NCBI RefSeq assembly: GCF_003073375.1
Contig: NZ_CP029002.1
Span: 3,024,001-3,088,000 of the forward strand
DNA from: Lysinibacillus sp. 2017
GTDB lineage: Bacteria > Bacillota > Bacilli > Bacillales_A > Planococcaceae
DNA: 64,000 bases
Direction of reading: 5' to 3'
In this document: positions 21,667-43,477 of the stretch, piece after piece
Position numbering within the stretch: position 1 is the stretch's first letter
Layout of the letters: each line of letters starts with the position of its first letter
The notes under the pieces: generated by a model
What the model was told of the DNA's origin: nothing
What the model saw: only the letters and a program-made list of their open reading frames with translations
The model's database searches: none
Translations under genes and position numbers: made by a program

Positions 21667-21792
21667 ACTTCACCCTCATTTTTTGGAATATAAGAGAAGG
21701 ATATACCAATACAGTATACCCTTCTGTTTACGTTTAGTTTAACCGATTGATTCTACATATCTGTATGATGCAATAACGCGTCACTAATTGTT

Positions 21793-22617: not shown

Positions 22618-22638
22618 AATATCACACCTTTTTCAACA

Positions 22639-25600
22639 CTATTTAATAGGAGCTACTAACCCTTTAAACAGCTCATAATTATGCTTCACACCTTCATCTA
22701 AATCAATCTCAATTTGCTGATCTGCCATATGATGCAATAACTCATCATATTTTTTCAATTCATCAATTTTCTTTTCTAGCGATTTTAATTCTTTCTTTGC
22801 AGCTGCAATTTCTTTAACAGTTGAATCACCATTAATGATATTCAATAAATCCGTTCTCTCTGCATCCATTCGATTTTGTACCTCATGTACATAGTCGGTA
22901 CGGATACGAGATAAGGTTGTTTTATCATAGCGATGCATGTAAATTAAACAGTTAAACGCTTTTTCTTTGCCTGATGTGAAGAGCCAATAGATAGGGCGTT
23001 TTTTGTAAGTTTGGATATGGTCTTTGTAGAAATCATTTAAGAAATAACGACGAATCGTTTCTTGTGCCGTTTCATTTTTCTTTCGTCCAAGAGCATCCGC
23101 TACAAAGTTAAGGTTTTCTTCAATTATCTCTATATTATATACAACCCGAATAAAATCAATAAACTTTGACACAATATCATCTTTAAAATGAGCTCCCGAT
23201 AAGACTGGAATAATATTATCTTCATCCACCATATCCGCTTTATATCGAGTCACATCAAAATTCCCACCAGCATAAATCAACCCTTCTTCTTTAAGCGAAT
23301 AACGCCCTAAAAAACAACCAACTGCGTAAGAAATAAAGCTTTTAATATCCTTTTCTAAATTGGCTTTGCTAATTGTTACATCTCTTTCTGCCACATTTGG
23401 TGAAAGTTCATCCTGTAGCTCATAAAGTTCAATAAGTAATTTATTCAACAATTCTTCATTTTCTTTTAATTGATGAAATCTATTTTCACAGTCATTTTCC
23501 CACTTTTCATATGCTAATTGTATCGATTCACTATTCAATAAAGAATGCTTTTTAAAATCCCATGAATTTTCAAAAGCATCCCAATCTTTTTTGGAGATTC
23601 TTAAATTTTCAGTAACAATTTTCTTTATTATTTCTTTATTATATCGGTCAATTTCAATTAACGGTATTCTCTCTATGTCCCCTGCAGTATAATTTAAAGT
23701 AGGACTCAATTGATTTAAAAAGGGAAAAACTAATTTAGAATTTAATATTGCAAGAAGAATTTCTATATCCATTTCTTTGTAAAAAAGTGACATACTAGCT
23801 GTATTATTAATATATCCATAATCTGAATACCTACAAGAAAAATCACCTGATGTAACACTACTCCAACTAATAGAAGGTTTAAAATAAAGCATGGGAGACC
23901 TATGACCTTTAGCATTTTCTATCTCTTCATAACTACTCTTATCCATTGCTACTATCTCAGTATCATTTCCGTACCATTTTCTGTATCCCCCCCCTTTTTT
24001 CGTAGGGAACCATTTTTTCTTACTTTCAAATGCTGATTCTAATGATTTTAAATTAAATCCAATAGAATTTACACTAGTCTCATACCAAAAACGAATAAAT
24101 TTATTATTATCTCCCGTAAACATACCTTTTTTCACATATGAAACTTTTCCGATATTACTGTTATCCGCAAAAATATCAAAAATATTGTTTGTAAACCAAT
24201 ATGCTATCGGACTACCTATAATTTTACCGAAGCTCTTCGGGTTAGGATAGCTTCGGTTTGCTAAATTAAAAAACTCCGTTTCCTTTTGATAACGTTTGCT
24301 ATAGCAGTAGTCTACTAATCTAACGGCTATCATTTTGTTTCTAGGAGCCGATTTTTTATTAATCCATGAAACAATGGGATTATGTCCTACTTTCCCATCA
24401 AACAACTCTGTACCAAAATCAACAAGAGAAGTAAATGCAACATTTTTTAATAGTTCAGATCTAAATTTTTCAAAGCTTTTCAAGAACATCCAAGAAGTTG
24501 TAGTAATAAAAGATATATAACCATCTGTTTGTAAATAGCTTTTAAGTGATTTCTCAAACATAACGATAGATAAATCAGACTTAGTTTCTGGATAATACTC
24601 TTTCACATAATTATCCAATAAAGGACTCATTCTTGAACTACCTAAATAAGGTGGATTCGTGATAACTATTTCGTATTTTTGTGACATAATTTTTGCTTGC
24701 TTAATTAACTTTGGTAACAAAACTTGCATGTCACTAATTTTTTGATAATTAAAGATATCATAATTATCACTAGTCCCTAATTGTGTTATAAATGTTGCTA
24801 GTTCATCATAATTATCATATTCAAGGTTCAAAATAGAACCATATTCTTTAGCATTTTCAAATACCTTTACTAGATAATTAACTTTATCTAACTGTTTTTC
24901 ATCTATAATTCGTGAAAAATCTTCGTTTACCAGCACATTACTATCAACAATTGTACATAAATTTAACTCTATATTTTCTCTAAAAATGCGTCTATTATAT
25001 TTTCTAGCTTTCATCATAACTGCAAAGCAAGCTATTTGATAAGCTCTATCATCTATTTCTAGTCCAAATAGATTATTTTTCAAAATTAAACTTGCTGCTT
25101 CTCTTGGAACGTACCCTTTTGATTCATATATTTTCATTAAAACATCGAACGCATATACAAGAATATGGCCACTTCCCATACAAGGATCTATAACTTTTAT
25201 ATGTTCGAGATTTATAGAGGCACTAGCTAAATCTCCAACTAAATCGAAATTTGATTCTGTTTCATGTTGCTGAAGATAATATTGAAATCCTTCTTGCAAT
25301 ATAGGGTCTGGGTTTTTCTCTAACCAATACCTTCCTAAAGAATTTTCTACCATATATTTAACTGCCCATTCTGGAGTAAATAGTTGCGTTGCAGCAGGTA
25401 ATAACTCTTTCGGTACTCGCTTTTTTGACATTTCACCATCATATACAATTTCATTTAATTCGGTATTGTAAAATTGATACAACCAACCAACTATTTCAAC
25501 CTTTGTCCAATCTTCTTCTGGAATAGCACATACATCTGTCATTTTTCGTACAAATGTATCTGTTCCTAGAAGACCTTCAGGAAATAATACTTCCGTATAC

Positions 25601-26115
25601 CCTTCAATCGTCTCAAACATAAACGGCATATAGCGATTCAGATCATTGCAATGTATTTTGATTAGATATTTGAAAAGCTCATCCATTTCGTTTTCAATTT
25701 TCAAGTTATACACAAGCTCTTTATCAATCGGTAAATCCAAATTCAATGCTTCTTTAAACATATCTGGCTCTGTACTATCTGGATTCACTGAAGAAAGTAC
25801 ACGTACCTTTGTTGGTAAGTAATCATTCACTTCCATATAACGCAGTGCGATGAAGCGGTTAAACCATGTATAAGCAGCCTCTTCCATGACGCGGTCATAG
25901 CCAATTTCGTTAATACGTGCAATTAATTTATTACGTTGTTTACGTTCAACATCTAAAAGCTGTTTGCTATCAATATAGATGGCATCCGAGCTTTCTAATG
26001 ATGCTTGTTGAATCGCATCAGGCGTAATTCCTAGCTTTCGTGCTTGTAGCTGAATTTTTTCAAGTAGTTCGAGGCGTGCTTCTGTTGCAAAGCTCTTTAA
26101 AGCCGATTTATTCAT
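22639..26115 (-). CDS. pglX: BREX adenine-specific DNA methyltransferase PglX
   Basis: PglX marks host DNA by N6-adenine methylation of a non-palindromic site, which protects it from BREX. SAM-binding motif I DPCMGSGHILVYAFDVL is at 310-326 and the catalytic NPPY at 487-490. A large C-terminal target-recognition region (about 600-900) and a coiled-coil tail (VKEIAAAKKELKSLEKKIDELKK) follow. The length of 1158 aa is normal for type 1 PglX and no break is seen, although phase-variable copies are known elsewhere. It lies 13 bases after brxC. Confidence 0.95.
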   Translation of the reverse strand: MNKSALKSFATEARLELLEKIQLQARKLGITPDAIQQASLESSDAIYIDSKQLLDVERKQRNKLIARINEIGYDRVMEEAAYTWFNRFIALRYMEVNDYLPTKVRVLSSVNPDSTEPDMFKEALNLDLPIDKELVYNLKIENEMDELFKYLIKIHCNDLNRYMPFMFETIEGYTEVLFPEGLLGTDTFVRKMTDVCAIPEEDWTKVEIVGWLYQFYNTELNEIVYDGEMSKKRVPKELLPAATQLFTPEWAVKYMVENSLGRYWLEKNPDPILQEGFQYYLQQHETESNFDLVGDLASASINLEHIKVIDPCMGSGHILVYAFDVLMKIYESKGYVPREAASLILKNNLFGLEIDDRAYQIACFAVMMKARKYNRRIFRENIELNLCTIVDSNVLVNEDFSRIIDEKQLDKVNYLVKVFENAKEYGSILNLEYDNYDELATFITQLGTSDNYDIFNYQKISDMQVLLPKLIKQAKIMSQKYEIVITNPPYLGSSRMSPLLDNYVKEYYPETKSDLSIVMFEKSLKSYLQTDGYISFITTTSWMFLKSFEKFRSELLKNVAFTSLVDFGTELFDGKVGHNPIVSWINKKSAPRNKMIAVRLVDYCYSKRYQKETEFFNLANRSYPNPKSFGKIIGSPIAYWFTNNIFDIFADNSNIGKVSYVKKGMFTGDNNKFIRFWYETSVNSIGFNLKSLESAFESKKKWFPTKKGGGYRKWYGNDTEIVAMDKSSYEEIENAKGHRSPMLYFKPSISWSSVTSGDFSCRYSDYGYINNTASMSLFYKEMDIEILLAILNSKLVFPFLNQLSPTLNYTAGDIERIPLIEIDRYNKEIIKKIVTENLRISKKDWDAFENSWDFKKHSLLNSESIQLAYEKWENDCENRFHQLKENEELLNKLLIELYELQDELSPNVAERDVTISKANLEKDIKSFISYAVGCFLGRYSLKEEGLIYAGGNFDVTRYKADMVDEDNIIPVLSGAHFKDDIVSKFIDFIRVVYNIEIIEENLNFVADALGRKKNETAQETIRRYFLNDFYKDHIQTYKKRPIYWLFTSGKEKAFNCLIYMHRYDKTTLSRIRTDYVHEVQNRMDAERTDLLNIINGDSTVKEIAAAKKELKSLEKKIDELKKYDELLHHMADQQIEIDLDEGVKHNYELFKGLVAPIK

Positions 26116-26128
26116 TGCTCAACATCCT

Positions 26129-29100
26129 TTACTCAATAAACTCAATTTGTTTATTTGATTTGATAATTTGCTTTAATTTTGCAGAAAGCGTTGAAATATA
26201 TTGATCCACATCCTGTTCCGTCGCAAGTGTTTTCATTGGAACTAATTTCGTCACTTTTACAGATTCTTTTTGAACAACTGGTTCTTCTACTGGTGGGACA
26301 TTTGATTCTCCACCGATTATAGGCTGCTGCTCTGCTTTACGCTTTGCTTCCTGTGCTATATCTTGATTGATGATGCGGCTCATTCTGTCCTTCAAGCTAG
26401 CACTTTGAGAAATCGTTGCATCCACCTTATAAATGTCTGCAAATGCTGCAATATCAGCTAATAGCTTAATAAAATAAGCTTCAACCTTTTGCTTTGTTTC
26501 AGTAGATACGCCATATTGTCGGGATAATAGTGATACCTCATCGTAATCTAGTTGCACTTTTTCTTTTGCAAAGGCGATTTTTTCTGCTAATACTTTATTA
26601 AATATGATATTTAGAGCATTTGTTAGCTCTGGAATTTCTTTAATTTTCGTATATGGAATCGGATCATTCAATATCACCTGTAGCTGCTGCATTGGCTGCT
26701 CAATTTCTTCACCAAATAGGTACGATTTATTTTCCTCGTATTTTTTAAATGCCGCTAAGCCTTTTTCAAATAATTCTTTTTGATTCGTTTCAAAGAAGCT
26801 CTTTACATAAGCAATGTCCTCTTCCCAATCTAACAAGTTATCCTCTAGCTCTTTTAGCTTTTCAAAGAAGGAAACGCTATCTAATTTGGCATCAAACTGC
26901 TGGAAATACTCTAGCCCTTTATTTAATAGGCTCATCCCTGGATATTTACGTCCTTCATAACGAGCCTTGTAGCCTTTAATTTCACTGATTTGCGTATCTA
27001 TTAAGCCCTGAATGTCTTTTAGTAAGCCATCCTCATCATCTGCTAAGTTCGTTGTATTAAACACGTCCTTACAAATACTTTTAGCAGTTCGAATTAATGC
27101 TTCATCTACTTTAGTACGTTTGACAACAATCGCTTTTTCTGACTCTGACGACTTGACTAAAGCTGTTATGATTTTATTTGTATCTTTTGCTGGCTCAATA
27201 TATTCAGAATTGTAGCGAATACGGATGCGTTGCTCTATTAGCAACTCAGCAATAAGTGCAGCGATATCTAACAGCTTCCATCCATACGTTTTACCTTGAT
27301 AACGTTCATATATTTTCTTTACTGTAATCTGTTTTTTAAGCTGCTCTTGCAAATCAACAAATTCAAATACTTCACGCTTTGCTTCTTGATTAGGCTTTGC
27401 CACAACGGAATCATCCAAAGACAATTGACCGTTATCCGTATTTAACAAAGCAACTAAATCTTTTTCGCTATCTAAATGCTCTTGAATATAGCCTAATTTA
27501 ATAAAGACGTTATCTACTAGTACTTTAAATGCAGCATTGATTTTTTCTTTTACAGAAGAGCCTTTAATTTCTACCTTTTCTCCGTAAATGTAGAACTCTG
27601 CATCCTTAATTGCCTCTGTTAGTAAATCTCTTACTCGGCGTTTACGGTCCTTTACTTCGACCTGCTTATTATTTAAAATGTTTTGAATGTTTTCTGGTTG
27701 CTGTAACGGATTTTTCTTTTTACGATAGTCCTCAATTTTTAAGGCTTCTTCCATTTCTTCTACATAAGAATCATTTGCACCTAACTTAATAAGCATTTCT
27801 CCACTGCCAGATGTAAGCAGCATTAGCTCCTGCTGTGATTTTTGATAATCATCCGATAATGGAGAAATAATTTGCACGCCAATTATCGCCGTTTGGTTGC
27901 CATAATTTTTTTCATCCATCTTTTGATTGAATGAGAAGGAATAGTGTTTCGAATAATTGAAACGTTTTTCATCATAAAGGTCGAGGAATATCGTATTTGC
28001 TAACTCACGTTTTAATACATCCTCATCGATAGTCACTTGCTTAATTTCACGGTTAATATCTTGCTCATCATCTGTTAAGAACACATAGTAGTCACCGTTT
28101 TTCTGAATTAATGTTTCGGTAATCAGTTTACGAAGTGATGATTTAATTTTTTCTTTTAACTTTAACTTGTCTTCGTCGATGTTTGTTACCATCAATGTTG
28201 CGATATTATCAATCGTAGCTGGCAGCTCTTTCACGTACTTAATCATGAATAGGACTTTTAATAAATCGATATTAAATTCATCATCTTTTAACGCTGGATT
28301 TTCTTTTGACCCTTCGATTACACGTGAAATCGCTGGGTTTAAAAATTCTTTAATCGTGTCATAAAATGCATAAAACGGAATTAAAGTACCTTCTTCTGCT
28401 TCTTTGTAATAAAGTGCAGCTTCCTTAAAGGCGGATAGCATTGAACGTTCACCTTCAGATAAATGCTTACCTGATGAGCCATGCTTACGTACTTGCTCGA
28501 ATACGTTTTGAAGTAGTTTAAATTGATACGGAATAAATGGATACACTTCCGCATATTCTTGTTCGTTATCATAGCCTCTTAAATCAGCTGTGCTTTCACG
28601 GAAGCTAATTAGATTTTTTAATATTGCACTTTTCTCTGGATAAATGGCCTTTAATTTATCTGTTACATGCGGAAACTTCTCTAAAATACGTTTTTTAATT
28701 ACTTCATCGACTGAAATCGAAGATAAGGACAAACGAGTATCAAAACGTCCTTGAATACGTGAGAAGTCATCACCTTTTACTTTAATGATCGAATCAATGC
28801 TTTCCTGAGAAGTAACCATAACCCATACTTTTCCTTCAGCATAGGTACCTAAATCTTCTGTTAGCGTTTGCAAATTAAGCATTAAATTACGGTTGTCGCC
28901 AATATATTGACCAATTTCATCTACTAAAAATACTAAATGGAAATTTGGACCCTTTGAATCTATATATTCCTTCACATCCTTAGCAAATGTTTGAATATCC
29001 ATTTTAAAATCATCTACTTTTTCTTCAATCCATTTGCGTGCAGACGCTTCTGAAAGGTTAATCACTTTTCCTAAAGCTTCAATAACAAAGTCTTGATCAA

Positions 29101-29704
29101 AATAGAACGTGCTGCGGCGTTCTTCCCAGCTTTCGCCTACAAGCAATTGGAACTCCTGCTTGAATGCTTCAAATTGTCCTTGTCTATCAAGATATTTCTC
29201 CATTTCAGCAACACCTGGAATATCTCCGTAATAACCACGATGCTCATAAAACACTTTCATAAACACACGTAAAATCGCATCTTCTTTTGATTTGTTATCT
29301 AAAGAACTTTTTGAATCAATATTGAATAAAACAACTTCTGTTTCAATATCTGCTGCTTTTTTCATGTTGGCATACACAAGAGGATCTTTAATCTTTTCTG
29401 CAAATAAATTTACAGGGTATTCATTTTCTACCATACGATTTTCTAATAGATACGCTAAAATCTTTAAGAAATGTGATTTACCTGAACCAAAGAACCCACT
29501 AATCCAAACACCCATCTTATCTGTTTCCCCAACAATTCCTCGTTGGTAGTTATCATAAAACTTCGAAAAATGCTTATGTAATTCTTGTGTCACTACATAC
29601 TCATCTAACTCGTTAAAAATATCCTTATCATTCGTTTGTGCTACTTTAATAACACCACGGATATCACGCTCAATACTCTTTAAAAACATGTCCTTTAAAA
29701 TCAT
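26129..29704 (-). CDS. brxC: BREX ATPase BrxC (PglY-like)
   Basis: The largest core BREX protein, 1191 aa. Walker A GFFGSGKS is at residues 70-77 near the N-terminus, and a Walker B-like LVFLVDEIGQYIG lies near 256-268. Long helical segments and a C-terminal stretch of QEAKRKAEQQ type follow. BrxC is an AAA+-type ATPase required for both methylation and exclusion in characterised systems. It stands between brxB and pglX in canonical order with short gaps (18 and 13 bases). Confidence 0.95.
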   Translation of the reverse strand: MILKDMFLKSIERDIRGVIKVAQTNDKDIFNELDEYVVTQELHKHFSKFYDNYQRGIVGETDKMGVWISGFFGSGKSHFLKILAYLLENRMVENEYPVNLFAEKIKDPLVYANMKKAADIETEVVLFNIDSKSSLDNKSKEDAILRVFMKVFYEHRGYYGDIPGVAEMEKYLDRQGQFEAFKQEFQLLVGESWEERRSTFYFDQDFVIEALGKVINLSEASARKWIEEKVDDFKMDIQTFAKDVKEYIDSKGPNFHLVFLVDEIGQYIGDNRNLMLNLQTLTEDLGTYAEGKVWVMVTSQESIDSIIKVKGDDFSRIQGRFDTRLSLSSISVDEVIKKRILEKFPHVTDKLKAIYPEKSAILKNLISFRESTADLRGYDNEQEYAEVYPFIPYQFKLLQNVFEQVRKHGSSGKHLSEGERSMLSAFKEAALYYKEAEEGTLIPFYAFYDTIKEFLNPAISRVIEGSKENPALKDDEFNIDLLKVLFMIKYVKELPATIDNIATLMVTNIDEDKLKLKEKIKSSLRKLITETLIQKNGDYYVFLTDDEQDINREIKQVTIDEDVLKRELANTIFLDLYDEKRFNYSKHYSFSFNQKMDEKNYGNQTAIIGVQIISPLSDDYQKSQQELMLLTSGSGEMLIKLGANDSYVEEMEEALKIEDYRKKKNPLQQPENIQNILNNKQVEVKDRKRRVRDLLTEAIKDAEFYIYGEKVEIKGSSVKEKINAAFKVLVDNVFIKLGYIQEHLDSEKDLVALLNTDNGQLSLDDSVVAKPNQEAKREVFEFVDLQEQLKKQITVKKIYERYQGKTYGWKLLDIAALIAELLIEQRIRIRYNSEYIEPAKDTNKIITALVKSSESEKAIVVKRTKVDEALIRTAKSICKDVFNTTNLADDEDGLLKDIQGLIDTQISEIKGYKARYEGRKYPGMSLLNKGLEYFQQFDAKLDSVSFFEKLKELEDNLLDWEEDIAYVKSFFETNQKELFEKGLAAFKKYEENKSYLFGEEIEQPMQQLQVILNDPIPYTKIKEIPELTNALNIIFNKVLAEKIAFAKEKVQLDYDEVSLLSRQYGVSTETKQKVEAYFIKLLADIAAFADIYKVDATISQSASLKDRMSRIINQDIAQEAKRKAEQQPIIGGESNVPPVEEPVVQKESVKVTKLVPMKTLATEQDVDQYISTLSAKLKQIIKSNKQIEFIE

Positions 29705-29722
29705 CTATATAGCCTCCCTGTG

Positions 29723-30289
29723 CTAATCAATTAATCGAAATGCTCGGTAATAGTTGTCATCTTTAAATTTGCTAAATAGCTGTAAGGATTGCCCATCATA
29801 TTGACCTGGGAAAAACATAACAACTGGTGTTTTATCTAAAATTTCTTGTAGGTTGTTCAAAATGTTATGAGAACGAACGAACGGATACACCTTCCCTACA
29901 CCTGTAAGGAAAATCACATTATGTTCGTCTAATTTTTCTTTGATCTTATTTAGGAAGATTTCAGGCTTCGCAAAGGTCGTCATTGCTTTAAACAGCATTT
30001 CCTTGCCTTGCTTTTCTTCCATTTGAAAAATACGTTTATCTATCTTTTTATCTTTTGCTATTTCAAGAAGTGTTTTATATAAATCGACCTCTAAAATTTG
30101 GCGTGTTGAGCCATCATAGTCGAACTCTTTTTTGATGTGCTGTATATAATCTCTCATTTCAAGCTCATAAACAGGTTCGTAATCAAATACATAGAAGCTA
30201 ATTTCGTTGCCTAGACCTCTACCTTCAATAAACTTGTCTTCCTTTAGCTTTGGAATAATTTTGTCCAGTCGCTCATTAAAATTAACCAT
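29723..30289 (-). CDS. brxB: BREX protein BrxB (DUF1788)
   Basis: DUF1788 protein of about 188 residues from MVNFNERLDKIIPKLKEDKF. Typical segments are GLGNEISFYVFDYEP, FLTGVGKVYPFVRSHNILNNLQ and VVMFFPGQYDGQSLQLFSKF near the C-terminus. The start at 30289 is chosen because an AGGGGG site lies 6 bases before it. It overlaps the brxA stop by 8 bases (CATGGTTAA), which points to translational coupling. BrxB is an essential BREX component without a known enzymatic activity. Confidence 0.95.
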   Translation of the reverse strand: MVNFNERLDKIIPKLKEDKFIEGRGLGNEISFYVFDYEPVYELEMRDYIQHIKKEFDYDGSTRQILEVDLYKTLLEIAKDKKIDKRIFQMEEKQGKEMLFKAMTTFAKPEIFLNKIKEKLDEHNVIFLTGVGKVYPFVRSHNILNNLQEILDKTPVVMFFPGQYDGQSLQLFSKFKDDNYYRAFRLID

Positions 30290-30896
30290 GATAGCCCCCT
30301 GCTTCTCCCATTGCTTGTACATACTTAGCATCACCAAGATGATTCAGATGAATTTTTATACGCTCATCGATATACAAACGGTTTAACTCATTGGATTTTA
30401 AATCTTTTAGTAGACCTGCATTTAACAAGATTTTTTTGAACACCTGTTTAAGTTTCGCTACTGTTGTACCCGACCAACCAGCCATAAATTCACTTTGCTC
30501 CATCTTTGCCGCAAAAAATACATTCACATCGACCTTATCAAGGAAATAATCATTGTTGTTTAACTTTTCAGCTACGACTTCCTGCATGAATTCATAAAAA
30601 AGACGATCAAATTTCATGATGGCATAAAGGTTGATCACTTTCCCCACCTCATACGGTTCATCAATCAATAATTGCAGTAGTAATTCGTCTAGTAAGTCCA
30701 CTCGCTTTAAAATATACGGCATTGCTCTTTTAACACTTGATAGCTTTTCATATTGAAAAATGTTTTCCTCTAAAACTTTATATCCAATTTCTTTATCCGA
30801 ATAACCTTGTTGCTTTAATATTGCTACTTGCTTCACCTCGTAAAGCATAAATCCAGCACCTGTTAAGACAGAAGAATATTCTATATCCATTGTCAT
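30282..30896 (-). CDS. brxA: BREX protein BrxA (DUF1819)
   Basis: DUF1819 family, 204 aa, with the usual opening YSSVLTGAGFMLYEVKQVA and the later segment GWSGTTVAKLKQVFKKILLNAGLL typical of this small helical DNA-binding protein. It is the first canonical BREX gene here. The ATG follows a GTGAGGA site. An ATG two codons later (MDIEYSS) is an alternative start. Confidence 0.93.
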   Translation of the reverse strand: MTMDIEYSSVLTGAGFMLYEVKQVAILKQQGYSDKEIGYKVLEENIFQYEKLSSVKRAMPYILKRVDLLDELLLQLLIDEPYEVGKVINLYAIMKFDRLFYEFMQEVVAEKLNNNDYFLDKVDVNVFFAAKMEQSEFMAGWSGTTVAKLKQVFKKILLNAGLLKDLKSNELNRLYIDERIKIHLNHLGDAKYVQAMGEAGGYHG

Positions 30897-30924: not shown

Positions 30925-31164
30925 TCACTTATCAATTTCCACAATTTTCTTAATTAATGAAAGTCTTCTTTTTCCACATTGCTGCTGAACAATTTTTGTA
31001 AAAACCCCATCCTTCATTAGCTTGTCAGAGTTATTTAAATACATACTATGTACATCTGAAATAAGTTCTTCTTCAGTTACCGCCTCTTGCCAATAAGCAT
31101 CTACTAATTCATTTATAGCCTTTGCTAAATCACGTTGTGTACGATAAAAACGTTTTACAACCAA
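30925..31164 (-). CDS. small TIGR04540-like protein at the head of the BREX operon
   Basis: About 79 residues with RFYRTQRDLAKAINELVDAYW, EEELISDVHSMYLNN and VQQQCGKRRLSLIKKIVE, which I recognise as the TIGR04540 pattern of small Firmicute proteins that often precede BREX genes. TTG at 31164 is preferred because GAGGTG lies 6-7 bases before it; GTG three codons upstream overlaps the site. It precedes brxA by 28 bases and faces the same way, so it is probably the first gene of the operon. A regulatory role is possible but unproven. Confidence 0.65.
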   Translation of the reverse strand: MVVKRFYRTQRDLAKAINELVDAYWQEAVTEEELISDVHSMYLNNSDKLMKDGVFTKIVQQQCGKRRLSLIKKIVEIDK

Positions 31165-31640
31165 CTGAAACACCTCAATTACATTATTAGTACAATATCT
31201 ATATCTTATTCTTACTTTATTCTCATTAAAGGGTTACTTCAAGTACAAAACGAAAATATATTACCATAAGTTTAGAACATCTCAATTATTATGTTCATTA
31301 CATGCATTGAATCAGCAAGCTATGAAATTACAAAACATTAACTTCTACAAAATACAAGCAAGTGTATGGTTTAATTATTTTTGCAGATCCACCAACTTAA
31401 CTCCACTAAAATTGGCAAGCAATCATTGCTACTTTTCTGTTTTAACTTCAGGCATGGCAGCAAGTTCAGTAATTCAATATTTCCCTACGTGTAAGCGATT
31501 GGTTAGGGGGATATTGCCGAAGTAATTATGCCCTTCAACCCTTGGTAATAAAGAATTTCTGATAAAAAAGTTTAAAATTTTTTTCAAATTTTTTTCGGGA
31601 TTTTTTTATCTTTTTTTTCGAATTTTAGGCTCTAATTAGG
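31165..31640. other. BREX upstream region
   Basis: No gene is supported on either strand. It should hold the BREX operon promoter, reading left. A TTGAAG with a weak TAAAGT-like -10 on the minus strand around 31210-31240 is the best candidate, but I do not regard it as secure. Confidence 0.35.
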
Positions 31641-31645
31641 CTGAA

Positions 31646-32372
31646 ATCTTTGGAAGAATCAAATAATAGTTTTTTTAGTCGAACCCTTCCATCGATATTA
31701 CACCCATTTTTAATGGAATAATTATTCGATAGTTTTTCTAGTCAATTCCTTCCAACAATAATTCATCTATTTTTATAAATGTAGGTTGAATATTCAAGAA
31801 ACCTCTATGGTTCTTTGATATAAGTTGTATAAATGTTATATAACTTATATTGTTTTTGGCATAAGTTATATAAGTGTTATATAACTTTTTTGCCTTATTT
31901 TGCTCTGTATGAGCTTTTTTATTGGAAGAATCTAATTGTAGTTTTTTCGGTCATTCTCTTCCTATTGAATTTTCTTCAGACTTATATAACAGTTGTATAT
32001 AAGTTATATAAGTGTTGTATAAATGTTATATAACTTTTGCCTTTTTCATTGGAAGAATCCAATTATAGTTTTTTCAATCATTCTCATCCTTTTAAATTCC
32101 CTTAAACTTATATAACAGTTATTTATAAGTTATATAAGTGTTGTATAAATGTTATATAACTTTTGCCTTTTTCATTGGAAGAATCTAATTGTAGTTTTTC
32201 CGGTCATTTTCTTCCTCTTAATTTCCCTTTAAACTTATATAACAGTTGTATATAAGTTATATAAATGTTGTATAACTTATGTCCTTTCCCATATAAATGT
32301 GGCATTAATATCCGAGAAACACCCTATGTTTTTTCGATATAAGCTGTATAAATGTTATACAACTATTTGGCA
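31646..32372 (+). repeat. tandem repeat family A, about 127-bp units
   Basis: Three near-identical units begin TTGGAAGAATC at 31922, 32049 and 32175 (periods 127 and 126), with a more diverged half unit from 31650. Each has a potential GGAAGAAT / ATTCTCTTCC hairpin and a cluster of TTATATAAC / GTTATATAA iteron-like words ending in palindromic AAGTTATATAA...TTATATAACTT. A related sequence (AAGAAACCTCTATGGTTC against GAGAAACACCCTATGTTTT) brackets the array at 31796 and 32311. Candidate origin or operator array. Confidence 0.85.
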
Positions 32373-32380
32373 GCATAAAA

Positions 32381-33440
32381 TCAAAACACTGTTAGTTAAA
32401 ATGAAAAAGGCATTTACATCTCAAATGTAGCTGCTGACCTAAATACTCTTATAGCCCCCTTTCTGATTGGGATTGTGTCTAAAGTGTGTCCAAAATGTGA
32501 CAACTCTGTACAACAAATTCCTATATGTGTGCACGCACTTGTTTTCCTCTTCGAACTAGAGGCAGGTTTTGGTTTACATACGTCCGTGCGTAAACCTACC
32601 TGTTATCGCATTACTACAAGCGAGCTTTACGGATTACTCTCGCTCCGAGCACACTTATGCCATTTCATTTACTAACACGCATCATGGAATATCAAAACAC
32701 TTTTAATTAAAAAGAAAAGGCATTTAAACCTCAAATGTAGCTGCTGATCTGAATACTCTTATAGCCCCTATTTGTTTAATATTATGGGCTTATAATTTAA
32801 TTGGCTCTATGTATCGGCTAGTACTTTATAATTGTGTCCAGAATGTGACAACTCTGTACAACAAATTCCTATATGTGTGTATACACTCGTTTTCTCTTCG
32901 AACTAGGGGCAGGTATCACTGTACATACGTCCGTGCGTAAACCTACCTGTTATCGTACTACTACAAGCGTGCTTTAAGGATTACTCTCGCTCCGAGCACG
33001 CTTATGCCATTTCGTTTAATGGCACGTATCATGGAAAACCCAAACACTATCAATTAAAAAGAAAAAGGCATTTAAATCTCAAATGTATCTGCTGATTTGA
33101 ATTCTTTTATATTCCCTGTTTGTTTGAATTTATTGGCTTAGAATTTAATTGGCTTTACGGCAAGAATGCCTCAACTGCGTCTAATAATGTGACAACTGTC
33201 TACAACAAATCCCTATATATGTGCACGTACTCGCTTCCTCCTTCGAACTAGAAGCAGGTATTGGCTTACATTCGTGCGTAAGTAAACCTGCTTGTTGTCG
33301 AATCACTACAAGCGATCTTTACAGATTACATTCGCTCCAAGCCCGCTAATACCATTTCGTTTATTAGCACGTATCACGGTATAAAAAACACTGTTAATTA
33401 AAAGAAATTGGTATTTAGACCTCAATAGATGCAAGTCTTT
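32381..33440 (+). repeat. tandem repeat family B, three 311-348-bp units plus a partial
   Basis: Units start at the AAAACACT...AATTAAAA box at 32381, 32692 and 33040, and a partial fourth at about 33383. Each holds AGGCATTTA, CTCAAATGTAGCTGCTGA, CTCTTATAGCCCC, AATGTGACAACTCTGTACAA and a set of hairpins. The best stem in unit 1 pairs CAGGT...GGTTTAC with GTAAACC...ACCTG. In unit 2 GCGTGC pairs with GCACGC and GCCATT with AATGGC. No protein frame is shared between units. This looks like a structured RNA or a replication/transfer site rather than coding DNA. Confidence 0.85.
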
Positions 33441-33612
33441 CCCTAAGATTTAAGAATTACTTTCATCACTTCAAATCATTTAGAGTCGATTTTCTTATAC
33501 TTAATATGATATTTTGTGTCGGTTCCACCCTTAAATACAAAATGAACATCTCCCTGCAATCCTTCTCCTCAAATCTAAAAATAGAATGCTGATGAATAGC
33601 TGTTTCTATGTA

Positions 33613-34060
33613 TCCGACACTTTTTTATGAATATTCATTTCTGCAAATTTGTAGCATGGGGTATTAATACTTCAGCTAGCTTCACATCTCATAACCATTA
33701 ATTCGATGTGTCCAACACTTTTTTGAGAATATTCATTTCTGCAAGTGTATAGCTTAGAGTATTAATACTTCAGCTGGCTTCACATCTTATAACCGACAAT
33801 CAGATGTGTTCGACACTTTTTTATGAATATTCGTTTCTGCAAATTTGTAGCATGGGGTATTAACACTTCAGCTAGCTTCACATCTCATAACCATTAATTT
33901 GATGTATCCGACACCTTTTTATGAATATTCATTTCTGCAAATTTGTAGCATGGGGTATTAATACTTCAGCTAGCTTCACATCTCATAACCATTAATTCGA
34001 TGTGTCCGACACTTTTTTATGAATATTCATTTCTGCAAGTGTATAGCATGGGGTATCAAT
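33613..34060 (+). repeat. tandem repeat family C, 98-bp period, 4.5 copies
   Basis: TCCGACAC-type words start at 33613, 33711, 33809, 33907 and 34005, an exact 98-bp period. Units contain the 12-bp palindrome ATGAATATTCAT (with single changes in units 2 and 3), the conserved GCATGGGGTATTAATACTTC, and an inverted repeat CACATC / GATGTG. The last unit stops 50 bases before the ATG of the excisionase-like gene, so the array is also that gene's upstream region. Confidence 0.9.
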
Positions 34061-34109
34061 TCTTTATTGACTTAATAACAATTACTAACTATTACGGAGG
34101 AACAAACAA

Positions 34110-34496
34110 ATGGAACTAACTATTGAAAAATCAATCGAAGAAAAAATTGAAAGCTTAATTACACAAAACTTTGAAAAAATCCTTGAAAAAAACATTGAAT
34201 CAATCCTTGATACAAAGCTTGATTCTTACCTTGGAAAAAAGCTTGGATTTTCTCCTGATAAAAACCTTGAAAAAATCTTTGAGAAAAAACTTGGTGAAAC
34301 AATTGGACAGCCTAATGAGCATGCAGCTAAAGAATGGCTGAACGTTCAGGAAACTTGCGATTATATCGGAATTTCCTATAAAAGTTTACAAAAGCTTATT
34401 GATCAAGGACTTAAAGGTAATTCAATTGGTCGCAGCAAGCGATTCTCCAAAACGGAAATCACTCACTTTTTAAAAAATGTACAGCATAAAAAATAA
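34110..34496 (+). CDS. excisionase-like HTH protein with coiled-coil N-terminus
   Basis: 128 residues. Residues 1-70 are heptad-like and repetitive (KSIEEKIESLI, NFEKILEKNIESILDTKL, NLEKIFEKKL), a likely coiled coil for oligomerisation. Residues 76-125 form a MerR/excisionase-type winged helix: WLNVQETCDYIGISYKSLQKLIDQGLKGNSIGRSKRFSKTEI. A GGAGG site precedes the ATG. It is directly upstream of the integrase gene (27-base gap), the usual xis-int arrangement, and directly downstream of the 98-bp repeats, which may be its binding array (inference). Confidence 0.75.
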   Translation: MELTIEKSIEEKIESLITQNFEKILEKNIESILDTKLDSYLGKKLGFSPDKNLEKIFEKKLGETIGQPNEHAAKEWLNVQETCDYIGISYKSLQKLIDQGLKGNSIGRSKRFSKTEITHFLKNVQHKK

Positions 34497-34523: not shown

Positions 34524-35693
34524 ATGACAACAATGGACAAAGCAGTTAAAGAATATATGAAAAGAGGCGTTCCTCATTATATGGTGAAAATGTATGGGGG
34601 TATCGATCCTTATACGAAAAAGCAAATCGACATTACAAAGCGTGGTTTTAAAACAAAAACTGAAGCAAAAGCTTTTTATGCTCAAAAACAAGCGGAAATG
34701 CTACAACGAAATGATACTGATAATCCAAACCTAACATTTGAGCAATTCTATCATTCTTACTATGAAGAATACCTTCAAAATTGTTCCCTCGAAAAAAGTA
34801 CTTTAGGGAAAATTAAAGGGATTTTCAAAAACCACATCCTACCTTTTTACGGAGATTTAAAGCTTAAAAATATTTCTTACCAAGATACTTTGCGGTCTTT
34901 TGAAGTATGGAAAGAAAAATTACAAAAACCGTCAAAGGTAGCAATCGAACTAAATAAATGCTTAGAACAAGCTAAATATAACGATTACATTCCGAAAAAT
35001 CCCCTTAAACTTGATGGTTTACGATCATGGGAAAAAAAAGAAGAAAGAAAGAGAGACAATGCACAAGGTGATAAATTGTTCTATACATCAGATGAAATAG
35101 ATTTATTTATTCAAAAGCTAAAAACAACAGATGATATTTCAAAAATTGCAAGTTTCCTCTTGCTTGTAAATTTAGGCTTACGCAAAGGAGAGCTTCTTGC
35201 ACTGCAATGGCAAGATATTGATTTTCAAAATAAAAAAATCCATATTCATCAAGCCATTGGTACAGATGAATTTAATAAGCCTTATATTAAAGCTACGAAG
35301 AACTTTTTAGAAAGAACACTTGATATTGATGAGGAAACTTTCCAAGCACTATTAAAATGGCAGGAGCTCCAAGCAGAGCAATTAAAGTGGCAAAGTCTTG
35401 AGCATCAAGGCGATAAGCAGTTTATCTTCCCAAACAATAAAAATACTTTTTATAATAACACCAAGTTAAATACCTGGTTAAAAAAGTTCCAAACTCAACA
35501 CGGACTAAAGCTTGTTTCAGTTCATGGATTACGTCACAGTTGTGCTACTCGCATCTATTATCAAACGAAAGATATAAAGTTCATTCAACATTTCTTAGGT
35601 CACACAGACATGACAACAACGGTAGATACGTATATTCATTGCATTCCCGAAATAGGCAGTATATTAGTAAAGTCATTTAATCGAGCTGCATAA
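34524..35693 (+). CDS. tyrosine recombinase (integrase) 1
   Basis: A 389-residue phage-type integrase. An AP2-like N-terminal arm-binding part (YTKKQIDITKRGFKTKTEA) and SAM-like core-binding domain lead to a catalytic domain with the set R220 (LRKGELLAL), H334xxR337 (HGLRHS), H360 (GH) and Y370 (DTY). All catalytic residues are intact. AAAGGAG precedes the ATG and a terminator follows. The 3' end and terminator are duplicated at 40.19-40.41 kb. Its attachment site is not known. Confidence 0.93.
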   Translation: MTTMDKAVKEYMKRGVPHYMVKMYGGIDPYTKKQIDITKRGFKTKTEAKAFYAQKQAEMLQRNDTDNPNLTFEQFYHSYYEEYLQNCSLEKSTLGKIKGIFKNHILPFYGDLKLKNISYQDTLRSFEVWKEKLQKPSKVAIELNKCLEQAKYNDYIPKNPLKLDGLRSWEKKEERKRDNAQGDKLFYTSDEIDLFIQKLKTTDDISKIASFLLLVNLGLRKGELLALQWQDIDFQNKKIHIHQAIGTDEFNKPYIKATKNFLERTLDIDEETFQALLKWQELQAEQLKWQSLEHQGDKQFIFPNNKNTFYNNTKLNTWLKKFQTQHGLKLVSVHGLRHSCATRIYYQTKDIKFIQHFLGHTDMTTTVDTYIHCIPEIGSILVKSFNRAA

Positions 35694-35718
35694 ATGAAAG
35701 TTAATTGAATCTCAATTC

Positions 35719-35756
35719 GTGCCAAAGTACATTCGTATTTTGGCACTTTTTCTTTC
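35719..35756 (+). terminator. terminator after integrase 1
   Basis: GTGCCAAA / TTTGGCAC hairpin followed by TTTTTCTTTCT. A diverged copy, with the same flanks, lies at 40376-40412 after the integrase fragment. Confidence 0.85.
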
Positions 35757-35830
35757 TCTATCTTTAAACAGATTTTCACAATAAGTAAAGAAATACTTAA
35801 AACTAATCCCTTTTTTTATACATTAATTAT

Positions 35831-36715: not shown

Positions 36716-36851
36716 TCCAACATGTTCGAAACTTATTTTTCGCATTTATTTTGTTGGAAATATTCTTAGAAGATAATAACAAATAGGGATAAAATATATA
36801 TTTAACAACTCTTATAGCCCTATTCAGCTACAAAACATCCGCTATTTCAAC

Positions 36852-37985
36852 CTAATTATTTATTAATGGTAGGTACTTTTTTATTAAAATTAAAAGTTCG
36901 GTATCCGAGTAAGATTTTATATTTAACTGCATCCGATTATTAATTAATGTAATTAATTGTTGGATAGCAGGTATTAGAAATTTAAAGCTATCCCTATGTT
37001 TTCCACAAATAATTAGTTCTTGATTTTCGTGATATTGTAATTCAGGTAATCCTTTTTCGCGTATTCTTATAAATAATGACATGCCTATAGTTTTATGGTG
37101 TTTATTTAACAAGTCATTTTTAGTTTGGTCTCTTTCTACTTGTTCTCTTTTTTTGTGATAATTACCATCAAATTCAATGCCTATAAGTAAGGACCTTTCT
37201 AATAAATCTATTTCTATACGACGTCCACTTTTCCACTTTATATCAAGATATTTCTTAGCAAAATCACCAATAATTTCATTTAATATTAATCTTAATAATT
37301 TTTCACTTTTTGAAGAATTATGAGAAGAATTATGGATTGGACATCCTTGGTTATGTGCAGTTCTGTGTCGTACTTCTTTTAAATAATAATCCACACAACG
37401 GCTGCACCAAAACGGATATTTTGTTGTAGAGCCAGGTAATATCAATGCAGGATTGAACATAGGATGTAACTCTTTAGCGTAAACTGGATACTTAATTTTG
37501 AGATTGTTTTCTAATGTTGCTTGTTTACCGTTACACTGTGGGCACGCAATACGACCATACGTAAAATCAGCACACCTTTGTTTTTGTTCTTCGTATATTC
37601 CCCAATGATGTTCCTCACATTTTACATAAATGTACTCATTAGAAGTTGCAGCTTTAGTAGAAGGGATGTAACCCATTGCACTATTTCTTTCCTTGTGCCA
37701 ATATTTATCGATATGTTCAGGGTTAGCTTTTGTTTGAACACTTACTTCTATATTTGTACCTTTGCAAAATTGACAGACAACCCCACCCCTTACTATAGTT
37801 TGATAAACTTTCTCTGGTGATTTTACTGTAAATAGACAATTAGGATTATTGAAATCACATGTCCAGAATGCATTGTATTTATCCTTTACTGTAACAGTAT
37901 TAAAACTTCTCCCAGCAACTTTTTTGTTTTTTTCAGCCGCCCATAATGATAACATTTTCCCTTTTGTTCCTAAATCATTACTCAA
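36852..37985 (-). CDS. zinc-finger protein with Vsr-like nuclease fold
   Basis: 377 residues. The N-terminal 220 residues carry repeated treble-clef/zinc-ribbon modules with spaced Cys pairs (CQFCKG, ACPQCNG, WCSRC, and CDFNNPNC at the start). The C-terminal part looks like a Vsr/PD-(D/E)XK endonuclease: KSEKLLRLILNEII, then IDIKWKSGRRIEIDLL-like strands (DIKWKSGRRIEIDLLE), IGIEFDGNYHKKREQVERDQTKNDLL. The D...ExDG..H pattern is compatible with a catalytic centre. It is an island gene next to a recombinase; DNA cleavage in defence or mobility is inferred. Confidence 0.65.
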   Translation of the reverse strand: MSNDLGTKGKMLSLWAAEKNKKVAGRSFNTVTVKDKYNAFWTCDFNNPNCLFTVKSPEKVYQTIVRGGVVCQFCKGTNIEVSVQTKANPEHIDKYWHKERNSAMGYIPSTKAATSNEYIYVKCEEHHWGIYEEQKQRCADFTYGRIACPQCNGKQATLENNLKIKYPVYAKELHPMFNPALILPGSTTKYPFWCSRCVDYYLKEVRHRTAHNQGCPIHNSSHNSSKSEKLLRLILNEIIGDFAKKYLDIKWKSGRRIEIDLLERSLLIGIEFDGNYHKKREQVERDQTKNDLLNKHHKTIGMSLFIRIREKGLPELQYHENQELIICGKHRDSFKFLIPAIQQLITLINNRMQLNIKSYSDTELLILIKKYLPLINN

Positions 37986-40167: not shown

Positions 40168-40329
40168 ATGAAAATGTGGAGTAAATATTTTACTTGTGCT
40201 ACTCGCATGTATTACCAAACAAAAGATATTAAATTTATCCAACACTTCTTAGGTCACACAGATATAACAACAACGATAGATACGTATAGTTATTGCATCC
40301 CTGAATTAGGCAATATATTAGTAAAGTGA
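40168..40329 (+). pseudogene. integrase fragment (C-terminal 45 codons of an integrase-1-like gene)
   Basis: From TGTGCTACTCGCATG onward the sequence encodes CATRMYYQTKDIKFIQHFLG and continues through a GH and a DTY box to a TGA, closely matching residues 340-383 of the integrase at 34524-35693. The catalytic Arg pair and upstream domains are missing. The homology continues past the stop into the same terminator hairpin. It marks a second, decayed copy of the same integrase module. Confidence 0.88.
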
Positions 40330-40375
40330 TTTAATCAAACTGTATAAATGATCGTTAACTAAATCTCAATTCATG

Positions 40376-40412
40376 CCAAAGTACATTTGATTGTATTTTG
40401 GCACTTGTTCTT
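40376..40412 (+). repeat. second copy of the integrase-1 terminator region
   Basis: GCCAAAGTACATT...TTTTGGCAC, homologous to 35720-35746, in the same position relative to the integrase end. Confidence 0.75.
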
Positions 40413-40575
40413 TCTGGGATAGTGTCAGAAAAACGTGTATTTAGAACGTTAAGATTATGCGTTGTTTTATGCAACAACCTGAGCGACGTAGCATACCCCA
40501 AAACACCCTCAAACTGTTGCTGGAACTGAGTTTGTAGAAACGTGCATAAAATCACGTATAAACAATGTTCCATAG

Positions 40576-40618: not shown

Positions 40619-40625
40619 TTATGCC

Positions 40626-40650
40626 CCCAAACTTTGATTTGGGAACGTTT
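40626..40650 (+). repeat. TTTGGGAACGTT hairpin repeat, copy 1 of 3
   Basis: CCCAAA-c-tttga-TTTGGGAACGTTT. Related hairpins are at 41001-41030 and 41531-41560, all in gaps around the 40685-40882 and 41043-41462 genes. The third has a perfect GTTCCCAAA / TTTGGGAAC stem. Confidence 0.55.
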
Positions 40651-40684
40651 ATTAAGTTCCTATTGTATATTATATAAACCCTTT

Positions 40685-40882
40685 TTAATTAGTGGACTTC
40701 ATCATTCGTCCACTAATAAGTATAACAATTAAGCCAATGATGATTGGTAGAAAAGCAATTTCGGTACTTGAATTTGTAACCTTAAAAATCAGAATATCTA
40801 TATTGGCAATAAAGCCAATCAGATAGAGTACCGCCATTGTTGCAAACCCTAACACTACAGAAATCCAAACAGTTTTATTCAT
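40685..40882 (-). CDS. small two-helix membrane protein
   Basis: 65 residues, MNKTVWISVVLGFATMAVLY then an acidic linker and a second helix AFLPIIIGLIVILISGRMM. AGGGGTG precedes the ATG. Family unknown; it may be a small accessory protein of the island. Confidence 0.6.
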   Translation of the reverse strand: MNKTVWISVVLGFATMAVLYLIGFIANIDILIFKVTNSSTEIAFLPIIIGLIVILISGRMMKSTN

Positions 40883-41042
40883 AATTTCACCCCTAATTTA
40901 ATCTTTCTTCTTTACTCTATACGAAATATTACAATGATAGTTTCAAAATTATGGTATTAAATAAAATACCCACCTATCCAACTGAATAGAGGGCATTGGT
41001 TCCCTAAGTGTCATTTGGGAACGTTTTTTGTATAGAGATAAA

Positions 41043-41462
41043 TTATTTATGCAGCATACGTGAATTTGATATATTTTGTTTGTCCAATAAAATGGTTTGT
41101 ATTAAATCATTTATCGTACCTACAACAACTTTTACTTGTGGTAAATGATAAAAGGTACTTGTTGTATCAAAGTTATTTACTGCTTCATCCGAAGAATAAA
41201 GGTAAATGGGTTTTCCTTGTCCTAGAGCAATACCAAACTCAATATGACTTCCTTTACCTGCTGGTAATAAAACAATCATAAAATCAGCTTCCATCACTGC
41301 ATCTTTTTCAAGGTTCCCTAATTTAGACAATTGCTCAAATGATGATGCTCGCTCATTCTTTGTCCAATCATATGTATGAATAAAGCCTTTACTTTTTAGT
41401 TCCTCTGAAACCTTTCTTACCGCTTGTTTATTACTAAAAGATGACGCAATATAAAATTTCAT
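41043..41462 (-). CDS. nucleoside 2-deoxyribosyltransferase-like protein
   Basis: 139 residues with the family's pattern: MKFYIASSFSNKQAVRKVSEEL at the N-terminus, VMEADFMIVLLPAGKGSHIEFGIALGQGKPIYLYS in the middle. The ADFMIVLLPAGKGSHIEFGIA segment carries the conserved Asp and the catalytic-type Glu (HIEFG). Relatives hydrolyse or transfer N-glycosidic bonds of deoxynucleosides, and distant ones act in nucleotide-based defence. The substrate here is unknown. Confidence 0.75.
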   Translation of the reverse strand: MKFYIASSFSNKQAVRKVSEELKSKGFIHTYDWTKNERASSFEQLSKLGNLEKDAVMEADFMIVLLPAGKGSHIEFGIALGQGKPIYLYSSDEAVNNFDTTSTFYHLPQVKVVVGTINDLIQTILLDKQNISNSRMLHK

Positions 41463-41851
41463 TTCGTTTAGTACTCCTTTTAATTAACTTTTATAGTGAA
41501 AATTTTATCATATTGCATTCCTTACTATATGTTCCCAAAGCGTTGTTTGGGAACATTCTTGAAATACTTATTGCACGAAAGCATAAATTTTACACGCACC
41601 TTTAACATTATGTCTCATTATAAATCCTTAAATTCCACAAATTATAATTATTAAATTCGACAATTATAACAATAAACCTCTTGTTCGAGTTTAAATGCTT
41701 TTTTATTTATTACCATTTCTGAAATTCTAAATGAAAACTGAGGACACTCATTAATTGGTAGAACATCTTTTATCAGCTATACTAACAATACAGTTAACAT
41801 TAAAATTAACTGTATCCCTAGTTTCCCTGTATGGTTCTAGGAGGCATTTTA
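41463..41851. other. regulatory spacer before integrase 2
   Basis: Holds the third GGGAAC hairpin (41531-41560) and the inverted repeat at 41788-41815. No gene is seen. Confidence 0.4.
41788..41815. promoter_or_regulatory. inverted repeat before integrase 2
   Basis: ATACAGTTAA / TTAACTGTAT, perfect 10-bp arms with an 8-base loop, 36 bases upstream of the integrase start. No T-run follows, so a repressor or recombination-protein site is more likely than a terminator. Confidence 0.6.
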
Positions 41852-42988
41852 ATGAAAGACCCTATTAAATCATATACAAAAAAAGATGGCAAGACCTACT
41901 ACATGTTTAAGCTTTATTTAGGAATAGATAATCAAACAGGCAAACAAATTCATGTTACTAGACGCGGTTTTCTAACAAAAAAAGAGGCTAGTCTCACTTT
42001 AGCTCAATTAAGAGTCGAAGTTAGTAAAGGGGAATATAAGAAGCCTATAACTGAAACATACGAGGATCTATATAATGTCTGGATTCAACACTACGAAAGA
42101 ACGGTCGAAGAAAGCACCTTTGTCAAAACAATAGGAATTTTCAAGAATCACATTCTACCTGCATTAGGTCATTACCGCATTGAGAAATTAAGTGTAGCAA
42201 TCTGCCAAGGCTTTGTTGATGACTGTTCCTTGAAACTAAAAAGATTTCGAATGGTTAAAACTTACGCTTCTAAAGTAATTGATTTCGCTATTAAGCGTGA
42301 GTACATCAGTTCTAATCCATTCAAGCTAGTGGATCTTCCAAAAATCAAAACCTCTGCTGTATTAGATACCGAGATCAACTATTATTCAAAAGAGCAGCTA
42401 ATTGAATTTCTTCAATGCTTAAAGCAATATGGTAACGCTCAAATAACCGCATTTTACTACCTGCTTGCTTTTTCAGGTATCCGTAAAGGGGAGGCTCTTG
42501 CATTAACCTGGGCAGATATAAATTTCGATACAAAGGAACTGCTCATTACAAAAGCTCTTTCAAGAGGTAAAAATAACAAGCTTTATATTAAATCAACGAA
42601 AACCAATACGATACGCCAGCTTTTAATCGATGATGAAACGTGCAGCATCTTATCTGAATGGAAAAAGATTCAGCAAGTTAAATTTCCAAATGCGAATGAC
42701 CAAAGTCAATTAATGTTTACAAACGAACAAAATGACTTATTGCAACAAACAATTCCTAGAAAGTGGCTCATGAAAATCATCGACAATTACAGCTTGCCTT
42801 ATACACATGTCCATTCATTTCGTCATGTCCATTGCTCTTTACTTTTCGAAGCGGGTGCAAGTGTCAAAGAAGTACAAGAACGATTAGGTCACACAGATGT
42901 GCAAACAACGCTCAACATATATACGCACCTATCAAAGCGTGCAAAAAACGACACAATTAATAAGTTTGTGACGTACTTAAACTCATAA
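41852..42988 (+). CDS. tyrosine recombinase (integrase) 2, the likely ssrA integrase
   Basis: 378 residues from MKDPIKSYTKKDGKTYYMFK. Start is the ATG at 41852, 7 bases after AGGAGG; a longer frame from 41831 would include the site. Catalytic residues (numbered from this start): R211 (IRKGEALAL), H321xxR324 (HSFRH), H347 (GH) and Y357 (NIYTHLSK), all present. It is related to but clearly distinct from integrase 1. Its gene ends 135 bases from the ssrA 3' end, the standard position for the recombinase that placed the island there. Confidence 0.93.
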   Translation: MKDPIKSYTKKDGKTYYMFKLYLGIDNQTGKQIHVTRRGFLTKKEASLTLAQLRVEVSKGEYKKPITETYEDLYNVWIQHYERTVEESTFVKTIGIFKNHILPALGHYRIEKLSVAICQGFVDDCSLKLKRFRMVKTYASKVIDFAIKREYISSNPFKLVDLPKIKTSAVLDTEINYYSKEQLIEFLQCLKQYGNAQITAFYYLLAFSGIRKGEALALTWADINFDTKELLITKALSRGKNNKLYIKSTKTNTIRQLLIDDETCSILSEWKKIQQVKFPNANDQSQLMFTNEQNDLLQQTIPRKWLMKIIDNYSLPYTHVHSFRHVHCSLLFEAGASVKEVQERLGHTDVQTTLNIYTHLSKRAKNDTINKFVTYLNS

Positions 42989-43092: not shown

Positions 43093-43122
43093 CCACTCTA
43101 GACAACTCTAGAAAATATAAAA

Positions 43123-43146
43123 ATGGAGACGGCGGGATTCGAACCC
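43123..43146. mobile_element. attR: ssrA 3' end
   Basis: ATGGAGACGGCGGGATTCGA begins here. The first 14 bases match the attL-like site at 9545. ssrA stays intact because the integrated end restores its T-arm and acceptor stem. Confidence 0.75.
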
Positions 43147-43477
43147 GCGTCCAGAAGCTCCAATACGCCGGCTTCTACGCGTGTAGTCTACCTATTTGCA
43201 ATTCGCGTAACATTATGCCGGTAAACAGGCGTCTTGTACGCTAACTTGGAAATCTCTTGTCGGTGACTCAAGTGGCACCACCGACCGTATCCCACTTAAG
43301 TTAGGCCCTGCGATTATCCACATGGGCGATGGATAGACAGAGCGCTTACGAGCTTACGCTGCGAAAGCTAAGTTTTGTTGTTTGCCAGTTATTATATAAC
43401 TTCCGTTGATGACGAAGACGAGACCTCCGACGCGCGACCAGAGCTTGAACCACCCCTGTCGAATCCGTAACGTCCCC
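43124..43477 (-). ncRNA. ssrA: transfer-messenger RNA (tmRNA)
   Basis: Rescues stalled ribosomes with SmpB. The 5' end GGGGACGTTACGGATTCGAC and the 3' end GGTTCGAATCCCGCCGTCTCCA form the tRNA-like domain. The reading frame gives tag GKQQNLAFAA then TAA, followed by pseudoknot sequences. The length is about 354 nt. CCA beyond the discriminator base is not encoded. smpB lies 750 bases upstream on the same strand, with one AraC-type gene between. Confidence 0.97.

Follow-up and report, generated by a model that had tools for sequence, protein, structure and literature searches.

A non-coding region built of three tandem-repeat arrays, A, B and C, lies inside an island integrated at ssrA (the tmRNA gene) in the stretch of the Lysinibacillus sp. 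2017 genome analysed here (64,000 nucleotides, hereafter the window). We consider it somewhat probable that A-B-C is a cis-acting control region of this mobile island, which has a rolling-circle initiator-like protein (Rep) and an xis-integrase (xis-int) pair of its own. Since the island encodes Rep and related elements have arrays between rep and xis, an origin, transfer or control region is the best reading of A-B-C. The initial annotation of this DNA had already raised an origin or transfer region as one of its suggestions, and it has stood better than the others; the role as an origin, like protein binding and the matching of particular proteins to particular arrays, is what we infer from it. 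The arrays themselves are real and are shared with related islands.

Tandem Repeats Finder placed array A at 31914-32275 (period 126, 2.9 copies), array B at 32494-33425 (period 347, 2.7 copies) and array C at 33604-34064 (period 98, 4.7 copies), and found nothing else in the window with a period of at least 40 bp, which bears out the three end-to-end families described initially. Their left limit, set earlier at 31646, has to be moved: conservation puts the edge at 31483, so that an A leader (31483-31640), the conserved first part of the non-coding region, precedes regions A (31641-32376), B (32377-33425) and C (33604-34097), none of which is assigned a strand. Taken with its leader, region A is of mixed composition, with hairpin-like units of the form GGAAG...CTTCC (31651, 31714, 31923, 32050 and about 32176, by eye), 127-bp tandem units and six 21-bp palindromes. 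Region B comprises three full units (32377-32687, 311 bp; 32688-33034, 347 bp; 33035-33378, 344 bp), laid out as a conserved 40-column block plus a variable linker, and ends in a 41-bp stub (33385-33425). The five 98-bp units of region C are conserved in their first half, and the last of them (34000-34097), immediately upstream of the xis start, is the xis leader. With diverged units of 98-347 bp and no spacers this is not a CRISPR array, as had been said at the outset. The absence of a protein frame common to the copies was likewise upheld: across 192 core columns of an alignment of 15 B units, no reading frame of the six showed an excess of synonymous changes, each contained 20-67 stop codons, and coding repeats were rejected.

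The palindromes reported in the arrays are far in excess of chance. Between 31483 and 32376 there are 8 inverted repeats (9-3-9, at most one mismatch) against 0.39 in shuffled sequences, and six of the 8 are one 21-bp palindrome, GTTRTATAA-NTG-TTRTAYAAC, one copy having a mismatch. When the whole 3.74-Mb genome was scanned with up to two mismatches, this palindrome was confined to A (8 forward matches and 1 reverse), compared with 2 matches for a reversed-control pattern. It looks like a site for an element-specific dimer, whose binding is putative. Folded as single-stranded DNA, 31800-31919 has z = -9.3, and three more stretches of the region reach -2.7 to -4.0.

Conservation was followed in a genus set of 16 genomes (the window's own included) and a family set of 261. 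Units of both B and C occur in 4 of the 16 genus genomes, the same four, so that the lack of conservation which the initial annotation had named as a refutation does not apply. All four islands, that of the window and those of G012, G003 and G013, share one order: rep, cargo, A, B, C, xis, inner integrase, outer integrase. In G013, genes for a copper-amine-oxidase-N protein and a subtilase intervene between B and C as additional cargo. Full B units number 3 in the window, 4 in G012, 3 in G003 and 5 in G013, and full C units 5, 4, 3 and 6. Because other islands have the units too, again in ordered arrays, we reject scattered, decayed insertion sequences as their source. Among the 261 family genomes a search with B gave 6 matches (two of them single, of 31 and 38 bases), with C 8 matches (three of 28-38 bases, and one of 79 bases in Lysinibacillus xylanilyticus, G073) and with the whole region 19, of which 13 were short (26-53 bases); these DNA searches scored just two or three candidates in most genomes, and weak relatives may be missed. 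The inner-integrase subfamily (at least 76%) was present in five of the 261, a sixth match standing at 35%. A search of 50,697 phage and 72,556 plasmid records for DNA matching 31483-34100 found none; the inner integrase had no confirmed relative there either, and two patterns had no exact match in IMG/VR. The A-leader pattern (up to three mismatches) matched in 28 of the 261 genomes against 14 for a reversed control, with 0-1 mismatch at five A loci. Of 20 loci fetched, the 8 on the forward strand were looked at: two were A loci and six were unlike A, five of these resembling one same gene (by eye), and a widespread riboswitch-like element was rejected.

The cargo left of A differs between the islands. 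It is BREX in the window and in G013, and a trio of SNF2 helicase, methylase and type III Res-like genes in G012 and G003 (scanned in G003, the SNF2 gene partly). With a different system in that place in two of the four islands, BREX is exchangeable cargo; the arrays do lie between BREX and xis-int in the window, as first described, but BREX is not a fixed neighbour. Both G012 and G003 have, at the far cargo edge, a fragment resembling the 3' end of brxL.

The protein encoded by rep (12773-13696, minus strand; 307 aa) has the fold of Rep_trans initiators (RepD/RepSTK1), the fold alignments giving 12-16% sequence identity, and it has family-level matches; activity as a relaxase is predicted by this likeness. 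The window's Rep itself matched no curated model, and Rep belongs to a diverged family of replication initiators that escapes scans of single proteins. Y154 and K156, assigned by eye, are invariant in an alignment of 19 rows. HUH-type initiators were not listed by a VIA-align fold search, which excludes nothing.

We compared 19 Rep neighbourhoods: one is a second copy in G013, and the others cover every genome that has a Rep relative (18 in all) once the four islands and G040 are set aside. In five (L132, L133, L139, L140 and L152) rep is divergent from xis and an outer-type integrase (46-53%) stands behind xis, an arrangement that was not seen in the other 14 at the search cut-off. The integrase adjoins ssrA in four of these compact elements; the stretch of L152 has none. 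Two of the first four compact loci carry arrays in the xis-rep intergenic region (81 bp x 2.2 and 180 bp x 3.9), a density of 2 in 5,109 bp of this intergenic sequence against 2 in 226,134 bp outside it (p = 0.003, computed post hoc, the pattern having already been noticed in those loci). L152, a later locus, has a 100 bp x 3.2 array in the same place, and the seven later loci together have two arrays outside it (L156 and L157). The arrays of L132 and L152 have a common core. By eye, the L133 array unit includes the 5' end of xis, the array units of G146 contain duplicated 5' ends of its xis gene, and a repressor-like gene occupies the rep-xis interval in L139, L140 and also L132.

Several steps can be proposed on this basis. 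The control region would correspond to the intergenic sequence between divergent rep and xis-int of the compact relatives; here BREX lies between it and rep. Xis and integrase would excise the island, and Rep would copy or mobilize the resulting circle. A-B-C would act as DNA rather than RNA, with element proteins binding its palindromes and hairpin-forming repeats: C may be a multiplied leader or operator of xis, and A an array of dimer-binding palindromes. Binding of Xis, the adjacent helix-turn-helix (HTH) protein that the initial annotation had in mind, is putative and possible. The region as a whole would contain or adjoin the site from which Rep starts to copy or transfer the excised circle, and the arrays may have grown by tandem duplication at a spot prone to it.

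A number of observations weigh against an origin or control region. Rep lacks the Arg that stands two residues before the catalytic Tyr of Rep_trans (by eye), and its gene is 18 kb from A in the window's island. In the compact relatives the integrase behind xis is of the outer rather than the inner type, and two of these five elements, L139 and L140, have no arrays. The window arrays have no detectable sequence in common with arrays from other genera, and a profile built on the L132/L152 core gave nothing above shuffles in the window, G012 or G013. Strict palindrome counts are uneven (6 in the window and in G013, 2 in G012, 1 in G003, 0 in G040). In G012 a 27-base match to the ssrA end lies past the outer integrase and the stretch has no tmRNA gene. 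The single-strand-origin CS-6 core motif is absent. Furthermore, A-B-C may be two joined modules, A-B and C, because C occurs with xis-int alone in two places and A alone in one. G073 has a single C unit with xis-int and neither A nor B, together with 98 bases from the ssrA 3' end, and G003 has a second C-xis-integrase copy with 2 C units upstream of the outer integrase. G040, of another genus, has A, interrupted by an insertion sequence (by eye), without B or C, and this A is flanked on both sides by sequence matching the ssrA flank of G003. Finally, B differs between G012 and G003 by 5-11%, close to the fourfold-site divergence of 7-8% in three of five compared genes (20% and 54% in the remaining two), so that selection acting on the arrays is at best putative.

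That last figure is what would be expected if the arrays were a neutral by-product, produced by slippage or rolling-circle template switching in a duplication-prone intergenic region of a mobile element and serving no selected function. The number of copies differs between loci (3-5 for B, 1-6 for C), other genera have unrelated arrays at the same place, and the duplicated xis 5' ends of G146 fit the same picture. Against this, the units contain conserved cores, two of the four islands keep six palindrome copies and all four have at least three copies of B, and we regard a purely neutral origin as unlikely, short of implausible. We would place at a similar, low level of probability a purely transcriptional account, with no role in replication or transfer, in which C serves as a long operator or leader of xis-int and A as that of the leftward defence operon. 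In its favour are the last C unit being the xis leader, A starting 266-323 bp from the leftward ORF start in the four islands and G040, and a palindrome shaped like the site of a dimeric regulator. However, sigma-A-like promoter matches are depleted in the window's region (4 against 17.5 +- 3.4 in shuffles) and lower than shuffles in that of G013 (6 against 11.6 +- 3.6), whereas a coding control shows no depletion (11 against 11.5), and operon-specific control leaves B unexplained.

A multi-copy structured regulatory RNA, also suggested initially, we consider very improbable. Local folding is stronger than that of shuffles in parts: 24% of 120-nt windows have z < -2 compared with 9% in a coding control. 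The A hairpins, however, are strong on both strands, as palindromic DNA requires, and covariation contributes just -0.65 kcal/mol to the consensus fold of the 15 B units, with two-sided changes at 4 of 34 pairs. At gathering cut-offs the sole Rfam match in the window is tmRNA; below them, at E up to 10, 31200-34120 gave three matches, all to eukaryotic families. There is no terminator-like site in the window's A-B-C region and one in that of G013. A structured RNA was therefore rejected as an explanation of the arrays.

Within the preferred origin, transfer or control reading, B could itself be a multi-copy rolling-circle origin, with TACTCTTATAGCC and its variants as Rep nick sites and with A and C as arrays for loading Rep and Xis; this we hold to be doubtful. 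The motif, which we treat as a lead only, lies on the plus strand at 32444-32456 in B unit 1 and recurs at 32754-32766 in unit 2; three matches with at most one mismatch occur in the window against 0.25 expected, an excess noticed after the fact. Its pC221 counterpart is TACTCTAATAGCC, within which the nick presumably falls, and 12 of the 13 bases recur in both B units. The motif varies in the other B units, and near 12 other Reps its mean best mismatch (2.83) is no better than that of 15 scrambled patterns (2.42-2.83), two further points against an origin here. No conserved stem was seen by eye around it in the 15 B units, and a pT181-type double-strand origin was not recognised. As a separate observation, AACTCTTATAGCC at 36807-36819 is one mismatch from the B motif and sits at the edge of an HNH-like gene (36852-37985) that the window alone has among the four islands. 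If B were such an origin, Rep would start at several places and would copy or excise different lengths, and arrayed origins beside xis would have arisen time and again in this whole family of defence elements at ssrA.

Known systems offer partial parallels. According to PMC5775427 and PMC4797284, pC221 is nicked in the loop of ICRII, and inverted repeats and hairpins matter for nicking at pT181/pC221 origins. The island resembles those plasmids (RepD/oriD) in its Rep fold and in the 12-of-13-base recurrence in B; it differs in that B has no flanking stem (by eye) and in that its origin would be multi-copy. Initiator-type relaxases, namely MobT/Rep_trans, PHA00330 and Rep_2 of streptococci, are known in mobilizable elements (excerpts of PMC5357655 and PMC5704250). 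Like the integrative and mobilizable elements (IMEs) described there, the island has direct-repeat bounds, a tyrosine integrase, an initiator-like protein and no recognised conjugation-pore genes. Unlike the streptococcal ones, it targets ssrA, has a diverged initiator and carries BREX along with further defence cargo; those excerpts do not mention a triple-array non-coding region of 2.4 kb. The island is probably an integrative-mobilizable kind of element loaded with exchangeable defence genes. ICEBs1 of Bacillus subtilis is likewise integrated, with an initiator-like relaxase (nicK) and a hairpin-bearing intergenic region that serves replication, the single-strand origin sso1 (PMC4595007, in part); there, sso1 lies beside nicK, the element is self-conjugative and the part consulted mentions no tandem arrays. 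Searches of titles and abstract openings in the open-licence literature found no description of tandem arrays placed between rep and xis.

These results link a previously unexplained repeat block to a diverged family of replication initiators and suggest that ssrA islands with BREX in these bacilli are candidate elements able to excise, copy themselves or be mobilized. The movement of defence islands is a live question. Arrays unrelated in sequence, yet recurring between rep and xis, may provide a means of distinguishing selected control sites from a scar of rolling-circle copying.

The island (9545-43136, no strand) is bounded by a short 14-bp direct repeat, ATGGAGACGGCGGG, at 9545 and 43123; the left copy is a copy of the ssrA end, and both ends are matched in three relatives. 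Its integration target, ssrA (43121-43477, minus strand; Rfam match), adjoins the outer tyrosine integrase (41831-42988, plus strand; Pfam match) in the window and in G013, with a 13-base end repeat there and at the left end. In G003 the ssrA gene is 6.7 kb beyond the outer integrase, copies of the outer integrase and ssrA end stand on both sides of the island, and several ssrA elements in tandem are suggested. The window's island holds a TIR-NLR-like gene, rep, GmrSD, BREX, A-B-C, xis, the inner integrase, a resolvase, the HNH-like gene, small ORFs, a deoxyribosyltransferase-like gene and the outer integrase. Two tyrosine-integrase frames are intact, and among 21 non-overlapping ORFs of at least 80 aa none had a Pfam match to VirB4 or other conjugation-pore families.

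The BREX operon between rep and region A (16114-30896, minus strand; domain matches) consists of brxL, pglZ, Abi_C and DUF2971 genes, a methylase gene, brxC, brxB and brxA. The Abi_C-domain and DUF2971 (PDC-S31) genes lie at 20830-22617 between pglZ and the methylase gene, where G013 has different genes, and a small ORF of the TIGR04540 family (30925-31173) is directly upstream of brxA. A 17-bp direct repeat (16099-16115 and 35792-35808; as long in 1 of 300 shuffles), a candidate attachment site of the inner integrase, would bound a nested 19.7-kb element containing BREX, A-B-C and xis-int (16.1-35.8 kb); a counterpart in G012, G003, G013 and G073 was sought and nothing longer than 12 appeared, nor was a shared 9-mer found flanking four other cargo slots. 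The xis-like gene (34110-34496, plus strand; HTH_17 domain match) encodes a protein with a repetitive N-terminus; its 5' part (34110-34300) is made of 12-bp units, and gene length varies between islands. The inner tyrosine integrase follows (34524-35693, plus strand; Pfam match), and to the right of its counterpart in G012 (L014:2787-5485) are EVE-HNH and reverse-transcriptase genes, possibly a defence pair. A remnant of a second inner-integrase 3' end remains at 40194-40415 (about 85% to 35540-35757); the second C-xis-integrase copy of G003 is fuller. Upstream of the outer integrase, at 40623-41560, are three dispersed inverted repeats, GTTCCC...GGGAAC, perhaps control sites of that integrase itself.
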